Made by a program: the position numbers and the translations under genes
Source of the DNA: Pyrococcus horikoshii OT3
GTDB lineage: Archaea > Methanobacteriota_B > Thermococci > Thermococcales > Thermococcaceae
DNA length: 64,000 bases
Assembly (NCBI RefSeq): GCF_000011105.1
Contig: NC_000961.1
Location: 1,350,662 to 1,414,661, forward strand
Direction: 5' to 3'
Part shown: one piece after another, positions 50,511-63,148 of the stretch
How positions within the stretch are numbered: the first letter of the stretch is position 1
How the letters are laid out: each line of letters opens with the position of its first letter
Notes under the pieces: generated by a model
Databases searched by the model: none
Told to the model about the DNA's origin: nothing
What the model saw: the letters and a program-made list of their open reading frames with translations, nothing else

Positions 50511-51257
50511 ATGAAGTTTGCAGTCGTTGGAAACCTTACTATTGATATAATTAAGGGAACGAAGAGACCAGGAGGGGGGGTATATTACTCTGCTCTAGCC
50601 CTCTCCAAGTTTGCTGATGTTACAATATACACAAAAATTGGGCCAGACTACCCGAAGGAGTGGCTTGGAGAAATTGAAGAATTTGCTGAAGTCGTTGCTT
50701 TTAGGGGAAATTTAACTACAACCTTTAGCCTATCTTATTCAGGAGATGAGAGAGTCATCAAAGTTATATCTAAAGGGGAAGTATTTACGCAGGATGAGCT
50801 CGAGACAATCGGAGAAAAAAACGTAATAATAAACCCAGTAGCGAATGAAATAAAGTCTGAACATGTAGAGCTCTTTAGAAGACCTTCACTTGATATTCAA
50901 GGGTTTGTAAGAAATCTAAGCTGGAAAGTCGAACTCAAGGATATTGAAGGAGGATTCTTGGAGAAGGCTTTTGTAGTTCACGCATCAAAGGAGGAATACT
51001 CAAGGATTAGGAATCCTGGGATGCCCGATGTTCTAGCGATAACAAATGGAGTTAAGGAAGGGAAAATTATAACGAAGGATGAAGAAATAACATTTATGCC
51101 CGAAGTCGTTAATACTCAAGATCCAACTGGCGCTGGAGACTGTTTTTTAGCATTGCTAACTTACGGTATCAATAAGTATAAGCTGCAAGAGGCTCTAAAC
51201 TTCGCAATTAAAGAAACCGCTGAATTTTTAAGAGCTAGGAAAAGAAAATCTATATGA
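50511..51257 (+). CDS. PfkB/ribokinase-family sugar kinase
   Basis: A compact 248-residue member of the ribokinase superfamily, shorter than typical (~300 aa) because the substrate lid is reduced. Visible are the N-terminal VVGNLTIDII strand, PGGGVYYSALALSKF (22-36), and the anion-hole/catalytic DPTGAGDCFLALLTYG (~204-219, catalytic Asp in GAGD). The phosphate acceptor is unknown; nucleoside or sugar kinases are both possible. It is immediately followed by a box C/D RNA and a Nudix gene. Confidence 0.85.
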   Translation: MKFAVVGNLTIDIIKGTKRPGGGVYYSALALSKFADVTIYTKIGPDYPKEWLGEIEEFAEVVAFRGNLTTTFSLSYSGDERVIKVISKGEVFTQDELETIGEKNVIINPVANEIKSEHVELFRRPSLDIQGFVRNLSWKVELKDIEGGFLEKAFVVHASKEEYSRIRNPGMPDVLAITNGVKEGKIITKDEEITFMPEVVNTQDPTGAGDCFLALLTYGINKYKLQEALNFAIKETAEFLRARKRKSI

Positions 51258-51259
51258 AT

Positions 51260-51317
51260 GGCGATGATGAGGCCTCGATTGGCTGAATCGATGATTGAGA
51301 GGGACTTGGCTGAGCGG
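51260..51317 (+). ncRNA. Box C/D guide sRNA 1
   Basis: The intergenic stretch has all four boxes at canonical archaeal spacing: C ATGATGA (51264-51270), a 12-base guide, D' CTGA (51283-51286), a 4-base spacer, C' ATGATTG (51291-51297), a second 12-base guide, and D CTGA (51310-51313). Terminal GC pairs flank C and D. By the N-plus-five rule the D' guide targets CCAAU-CGAGGCC (U methylated) and the D guide targets CCAAG-UCCCUCU (G methylated). Targets in rRNA or tRNA were not checked. It lies between the PfkB and Nudix genes and abuts the latter's ribosome binding site. Confidence 0.85.
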
Positions 51318-51325
51318 TGATTAAA

Positions 51326-51838
51326 ATGAAAAGGTATGCTCTGCTTATAAAAGCTCCCGATGATTACGATATATCAGGTTTCGAGAAGAAGATTAAAGAA
51401 ACGGGCAAAAAAGAGGGAATTAAAGTCGAAATGTATAGATGCATAGGACTCACGGTCGACATAGTTATAATCTATAACAATGGAATCGTCCTTATAAGGA
51501 GGAAGAACGAACCATATAAGGGATTTTTAGCCCTTCCTGGGGGATTCGTTGAGTATGGGGAAAAGGTCGAAGATGCAGCAATTAGGGAAGCCAAAGAGGA
51601 GACTGGCTTAGACGTAAAGCTCCTCAGAATAGTTGGAGTTTACTCCGATCCCCGCAGAGATCCAAGGGGACACACAGTAACTGTAGCATTCCTAGCGGTT
51701 GGAAGCGGTGAACTTAAAGCAGGAGATGATGCTAAAGATGTTACAGTTGTTCCCATTAATGAAATTGAAAGGATAAAGGAAAAGCTTGCATTTGACCATG
51801 CAAAGATAATAGAGGATGCCCTCACACTAAAACCTTAA
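51326..51838 (+). CDS. Nudix hydrolase (ADP-ribose pyrophosphatase type)
   Basis: The 170-residue Nudix protein has a complete Nudix box, GGFVEYGEKVEDAAIREAKEETGLD (residues ~71-95, GX5EX7REUXEEXGU), after the MYRCIGLTVDIVIIY strand. The adjacent segment YSDPRRDPRGHTVTVAFL is seen in archaeal ADP-ribose pyrophosphatases, so ADP-ribose is the likely substrate, though a broader housecleaning role is possible. The ATG at 51326 follows GCGGTGAT; a GTG at 51317 lies in that site. A C/D RNA occupies its upstream region, and the 3' end overlaps the convergent MinD-like gene by 17 bases. Confidence 0.9.
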   Translation: MKRYALLIKAPDDYDISGFEKKIKETGKKEGIKVEMYRCIGLTVDIVIIYNNGIVLIRRKNEPYKGFLALPGGFVEYGEKVEDAAIREAKEETGLDVKLLRIVGVYSDPRRDPRGHTVTVAFLAVGSGELKAGDDAKDVTVVPINEIERIKEKLAFDHAKIIEDALTLKP

Positions 51839-61000: not shown

Positions 61001-61063
61001 GGGGTGATGAGGAAAATTTCGCTAGCTGAAGTGAAAGATGATGAATACCCTCGCAACCGAGCC
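61001..61063 (+). ncRNA. Box C/D guide sRNA 2
   Basis: Boxes are C GTGATGA (61004-61010), D' CTGA (61026-61029), C' ATGATGA (61038-61044) and D CCGA (61057-61060, one base off consensus). The first guide is 15 bases, the second the canonical 12; the D'-C' spacer is 8 bases, longer than usual. G/C bases flank C and D and can pair. The N-plus-five rule points to the C in CUAGC-GAAAUU (D' guide) and the G in UUGCG-AGGGUAU (D guide). The 3' end meets the stop codon of the convergent DM1 gene. No protein is likely from this strand. Confidence 0.75.
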
Positions 61064-63086: not shown

Positions 63087-63148
63087 AAGCCCTCAGAGGG
63101 AAGTCGGTCATCATGCATCAGCTCACTCCACTTCCAATCATCGGGCTT
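63087..63148 (-). ncRNA. Box C/D guide sRNA 3, overlapping the antiporter stop codon
   Basis: On the minus strand a perfect 6-bp terminal stem, AAGCCC (63148-63143) with GGGCTT (63092-63087), encloses four boxes. These are C ATGATTG (63141-63135), a 13-base guide, D' CTGA (63121-63118), a 3-base spacer, C' ATGATGA (63114-63108), an 11-base guide, and D CTGA (63096-63093). T-rich sequence follows, a possible terminator. N-plus-five targets: the C in CUCAC-UCCACUUC (D' guide) and the A in AGGGA-AGUCGG (D guide). The TGA stop of the antiporter gene lies in the C box, so the RNA is either processed from that mRNA or made from a promoter inside the gene. Confidence 0.85.

Follow-up and report, generated by a model that had tools for sequence, protein, structure and literature searches.

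A box C/D guide RNA with predicted 23S rRNA targets in a Nudix gene leader of Pyrococcus horikoshii

In Thermococcus kodakarensis the small RNA sR61, also called Tko-sR67, was mapped to positions 2070055 to 2070116 (62 nt), with 100,212 small-RNA reads aligned to it, 92 circular reads that had no counterpart in an RNA-ligase mutant, and a start site at 2070114 (PMC9014305). In another study "Tko-sR67 + 7,8-dihydro-8-oxoguanine-triphosphatase" (TK2284) was found among the most abundant transcripts; the TK2284 transcript carries Tko-sR67 in its 5' region, and it was pointed out that a cis-regulatory role is possible for some of the 5' elements classed as snoRNAs (PMC4247193). L7Ae was shown to repress its own mRNA via a kink-turn beside the Shine-Dalgarno (SD) sequence (PMC5539422; PMC6298567). 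According to the account of Tripp 2017 given in PMC7994747, the majority of archaeal C/D genes lie close against or overlap a neighbouring gene and need no promoter of their own, stop codons often fall within the boxes, and, in a reporter assay, expression downstream was reduced by 5' overlaps of C/D genes. As to targets, archaeal 2'-O-methylation has been predicted to be concentrated in helices 35/35a of 23S domain II, described as a hotspot (PMC4644070). The T. kodakarensis sRNA that we found upstream of the Nudix gene (genome G023) coincides with the position of sR61. Since this orthologue was published with both its expression and its place in the Nudix leader, the core finding at the locus described below is already known, and the RNA belongs to a familiar class that Rfam and the published RNA-seq of the orthologue cover.

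The element at 51260-51317, on the plus strand of the 64,000-nucleotide stretch of P. horikoshii DNA that was analysed (the window), is very probably a double-guide archaeal box C/D sRNA directed at 23S U926 and G841 and made from a Nudix mRNA leader. Its identity as a box C/D guide RNA, which had been put forward in a preliminary description, is upheld by conservation at the syntenic place and by the predicted rRNA targets. The core measures about 56-58 nt and reads GGCG-ATGATGA-GGCCTCGATTGG-CTGA-ATCG-ATGATTG-AGAGGGACTTGG-CTGA-GC-GGTGAT-TAAA-ATG on into the Nudix gene. Box C (ATGATGA, 51264-51270) is followed by the 12-nt D' guide GGCCTCGATTGG (51271-51282), box D' (CTGA, 51283-51286), the 4-nt spacer ATCG between 51286 and 51291, a non-consensus variant of box C' (ATGATTG, 51291-51297), the 12-nt D guide AGAGGGACTTGG (51298-51309) and box D (CTGA, 51310-51313), while the terminal stem is a 2-bp pairing of GC at 51261-51262 with GC at 51314-51315. 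The boxes thus stand in the order of an archaeal C/D guide sRNA (RUGAUGA, CUGA, C', CUGA within ~50-70 nt). Both 12-nt guides and the 4-nt D'-C' spacer lie where the preliminary description had placed them; the suggestion that 4 nt is an optimum was not borne out, as the spacing is 2, 3, 4 or 6 nt in orthologues. The Rfam model sR20 (RF01140) matches 51260-51315 with 60.4 bits (E 1.7e-10), above its curated gathering score of 44 bits. No signal was obtained when the secondary structure of the sRNA was predicted (z -0.30). Two more Rfam box C/D sRNAs were seen in the window, sR39 at 61003-61062 (+, 74.2 bits) and sR58 at 63091-63145 (-, 82.1 bits).

Targets were assigned by the N+5 rule and numbered after E. 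coli through an alignment with the E. coli 23S rRNA. Both guides, of the 10-12 nt expected beside D' and D, pair with rRNA at the fifth nucleotide upstream of their box, the D guide more weakly. The alignment of the guides to rRNA and tRNA proposed in the preliminary description returned two 23S sites. The D' guide forms 12 of 12 Watson-Crick pairs with positions 922-933, placing the predicted methylation at U926 (E. coli U790), and none of 150 shuffled guides did as well. In the genome of 1,738,505 bases the 12-mer target occurs nowhere but in the 23S gene and in the opposite strand of the sRNA gene itself, and an exact tRNA or mRNA target was dismissed on this ground. That the D' guide directs methylation at U926 is, by this pairing, a strongly supported prediction. 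The D guide forms 9 contiguous base pairs with 839-847, the site being G841 (E. coli G707); 11 of 150 shuffles also reached 9 bp, so that the D match taken alone is not significant. Pairing of 8-10 bp to G841 was found in all eight Pyrococcus genomes with rRNA compared. Alternatives of 8-9 bp exist in 16S rRNA (G551 and G1084), and these were set behind G841 because 85 nt separate the latter from the D' target U926 and the core of the guide, GGGACUU, is kept in other genera. Methylation at G841 is thus the probable, predicted outcome of the D guide. For tRNA or mRNA as its target, 12-mers with one mismatch occurred 13 times elsewhere, which was not above the backwards control.

For the comparison, the genus group comprised 9 genomes and the family group 94. 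All nine Pyrococcus genomes had a single sR20 match above the cut-off, and it lay at the Nudix locus. The Nudix gene was present in 60 of 61 family genomes (Thermococcaceae); among 58 intact Nudix leaders, 46 contained a complete C/D sRNA, two a degenerate one (G025 and G039) and ten none. The D' guide CCUCGAUUGG was found in nine complete sRNAs, all from Pyrococcus. The other 37 carry a CGUCAGC D' guide with about 10 bp around 23S C877, 49 nt from U926, and most of them still keep the D guide for G841. Judged by the aligned guides, the D' guide is swapped between lineages while the other guide is kept in most, and since C877 and U926 are only 49 nt apart, it differs by lineage and yet stays in one rRNA region. 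With the patterns used, no second U926-guiding sRNA having CCTCGATTGG before a D-type box was found in Thermococcus, and only scattered non-orthologous matches were seen for a second C877-guiding sRNA in Pyrococcus.

The rRNA targets change along with the guides. At 23S position 874 the rRNA base agrees with the guide base (A with U, G with C) in 21 of 21 genomes on the Nudix tree; as this reflects only one or two independent changes, the agreement is supportive, and covariation as a statistical proof was rejected. At position 881 (P. horikoshii 23S numbering) the rRNAs having U, those of eight Pyrococcus and of G075, G078, G079 and G084, all come from genomes without the CGUCAGC guide. Among 38 rRNAs with C881 this guide was present in a complete sRNA in 35, degenerate in two and absent in one (G034). 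In each of two separate groups, namely Pyrococcus and a portion of the group g4, 881 changes from C to U where the C877 guide has been lost or replaced, an association that shared ancestry may explain as well.

Several observations were made beside the main comparison. In L031, L032, L034, L087, L096 and similar Thermococcus leaders the D' guide is kept and the 23S complementarity of the D guide is lost; the D guide is often shortened (9-10 nt) in the Thermococcus leaders that lack this complementarity. A C/D-like element with the guide CACTCGGTTGG or a close variant was seen in three genomes of three genera (G004:C1:127099-127120, G021:C1:373294-373315 and G089:C3:246149-246170), the best 23S match of the guide lying around C2006. 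In G011 an sR18 match (L008 254-309, minus strand) was seen close to the sRNA locus, with a tRNA gene of the same strand some 270 nt away.

As had been claimed at the outset, the sRNA fills the gap between a kinase gene and a Nudix gene, both on the plus strand. The PfkB-like sugar kinase gene (50511-51257; Pfam PfkB, E 2.9e-6) has its stop at 51255-51257, 2 nt short of the sRNA core, which starts at 51260, and the Nudix hydrolase gene (Pfam NUDIX, E 7.5e-26) extends from the ATG at 51326, picked through orthologue comparison, to 51838 with the stop codon included. In seven of nine Pyrococcus and 11 of 12 g4/g5 genomes the kinase frame continues across box C and the D' guide as far as its stop, the TGA of box D'. 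The peptide DDEASIG, coded by box C and the D' guide up to that TGA, is in frame in seven of nine Pyrococcus and out of frame in P. horikoshii, whose kinase C-terminus (51230-51286) has a frame unlike most other Pyrococcus; the change may be a real indel or a sequencing error. A TATA-like site 30-33 nt before box C was found in 24 of 25 Thermococcus-type (g3) genomes and in none of nine Pyrococcus and 12 g4/g5 genomes, and P. horikoshii has a weaker AT-rich site at -37. The proposal that the sRNA is excised from a polycistronic transcript therefore held only in part. It fits Pyrococcus, which has no TATA at the usual distance, whereas in Thermococcus the own promoter and the mapped start indicate that the sRNA heads the Nudix transcript and is not cut from mid-operon. 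With the TATA element confined to the Thermococcus type and kinase overlap seen elsewhere, the excision model suits Pyrococcus better.

Contact between the 3' end of the sRNA and the Nudix ribosome binding site, also noticed earlier, was confirmed, with the SD GGTGAT (51316-51321) starting 2 nt after box D, directly behind the 2-bp stem. In P. horikoshii the SD is outside the terminal stem and only abuts it. The terminal stem has 3-6 bp in most orthologues, and in 36 of 46 genomes SD bases lie inside it (e.g. CACC/GGUG), so that the kink-turn sequence overlaps the SD, as looked for in leaders regulated by L7Ae. The SD begins 0-6 nt past box D in most genomes, 41 of 46 have 9-13 nt between box D and the ATG, and a second SD farther downstream, clear of the sRNA, is present in five of six g5 genomes. 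The T. kodakarensis RNA, as given by its junction (+/-5 nt), reads ...CUGA-GGUG-GUUU, its end lying 2 nt upstream of the ATG (2070052); it thus contains the Nudix SD, which excision of the sRNA would remove.

From these data a route of action may be proposed. In Thermococcus the leader would be transcribed from a TATA promoter of its own that directly precedes the sRNA, and in Pyrococcus transcripts would most likely enter from the kinase gene; trimming around a protein-protected core would then yield the sRNA. Assembled, as we infer, with L7Ae, Nop5 and fibrillarin, the sRNA would guide 2'-O-methylation in 23S domain II, at U926 by the D' guide and at G841 by the D guide. Because the RNA 3' end runs into the Nudix SD, a single transcript molecule would probably yield the sRNA or act as a Nudix mRNA that is translated efficiently, but not both. 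In view of L7Ae autoregulation and the reporter effect of 5' overlaps, such a mutual exclusion is plausible at the Nudix leader.

C/D boxes are short and relaxed scans do give false positives; the probability that the boxes arose by chance, with no functional RNA, is nevertheless negligible. The strict C-D'-C'-D pattern occurs once in the 64 kb, searched on both strands, and in none of 100 simulated windows (Markov-1), the boxes are kept across genera, and the 12/12 rRNA match is unique in the genome. Synteny and the expression of the orthologue have already refuted this explanation. The leader might instead be mainly a cis-regulatory kink-turn, in which L7Ae or the sRNP masks the Nudix SD and the guide role is secondary. 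The closeness of the SD to box D (0-6 nt behind it in most genomes), the stem overlap in 36 of 46, the precedent of L7Ae autorepression through an SD-adjacent kink-turn (PMC5539422; PMC6298567) and the remark that so-called snoRNAs in 5' regions are possibly cis-regulatory (PMC4247193) all speak for such a role. We consider it unlikely as the main one, for the D' guide-rRNA match is far above chance and agrees with the target changes, the RNA accumulates in T. kodakarensis as an abundant small RNA that is partly circular, a second SD lies away from the sRNA in five of the six g5 genomes, and ten leaders have the Nudix gene without the sRNA.

There is about an even chance that the arrangement reflects genome packing, that is, that the sRNA originated in a transcribed gap, whose transcription it uses, the SD contact having no regulatory meaning. 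Promoterless C/D genes that hug their neighbours, with stops in the boxes, are usual in archaea as far as Tripp 2017 is reported in PMC7994747; in many genomes the kinase stop is the TGA of D', and ten leaders without the sRNA retain an intact Nudix gene. Against this, the SD overlap is kept over several genera and, by the same second-hand account, 5' overlaps lower downstream expression, which suggests that the overlap is probably not cost-free. A further reading, tentative and rather unlikely as a whole, is that of a bifunctional leader in which stem and kink-turn would form a translational switch of the Nudix gene, with sRNP assembly and excision excluding translation, and in which genera have exchanged the D' guide for one with another target 49 nt away in the same rRNA domain. 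If it is true, the capacity for rRNA methylation would be linked to a nucleotide-pool enzyme.

The predicted guide RNA, whichever meaning its SD contact has, makes the locus a small natural experiment, in which one syntenic guide RNA can be followed over some 60 genomes with one guide kept and one swapped, under differing promoter arrangements and with a stem that shares bases with the ribosome-binding site. Two questions become testable here, the turnover of guide sequences and the possible competition of sRNP assembly with downstream translation. In the literature searched, which took in Gaspin 2000 and Tripp 2017 only in part, we found no description of the Pyrococcus D' guide swap, the SD within the stem or the promoter differences.

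Like the members of Rfam RF01140 (sR20), the P. horikoshii element matches the model over its full length and is the one above-cut-off site of its genome, as in each Pyrococcus genome; however, the D guide consensus of the model is unlike the P. horikoshii D guide (alignment gaps), and the Thermococcus orthologues score below the gathering score. With sR61/Tko-sR67, a discrete and partly circular RNA of about 62 nt, it shares the place before the orthologous Nudix gene (TK2284 in T. kodakarensis) and the D guide core GGGACUU, but the T. kodakarensis RNA differs in its D' guide AACGUCAGCACG, which points to 23S C877 as against U926 in P. horikoshii, and in having a TATA box of its own 31 nt ahead of box C and the SD within the terminal stem. 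Like the L7Ae-binding leader in the l7ae 5' UTR, the element sets kink-turn-forming boxes directly beside an SD in an mRNA leader; unlike that leader, its kink-turn is part of a full C/D guide RNA with predicted rRNA targets.
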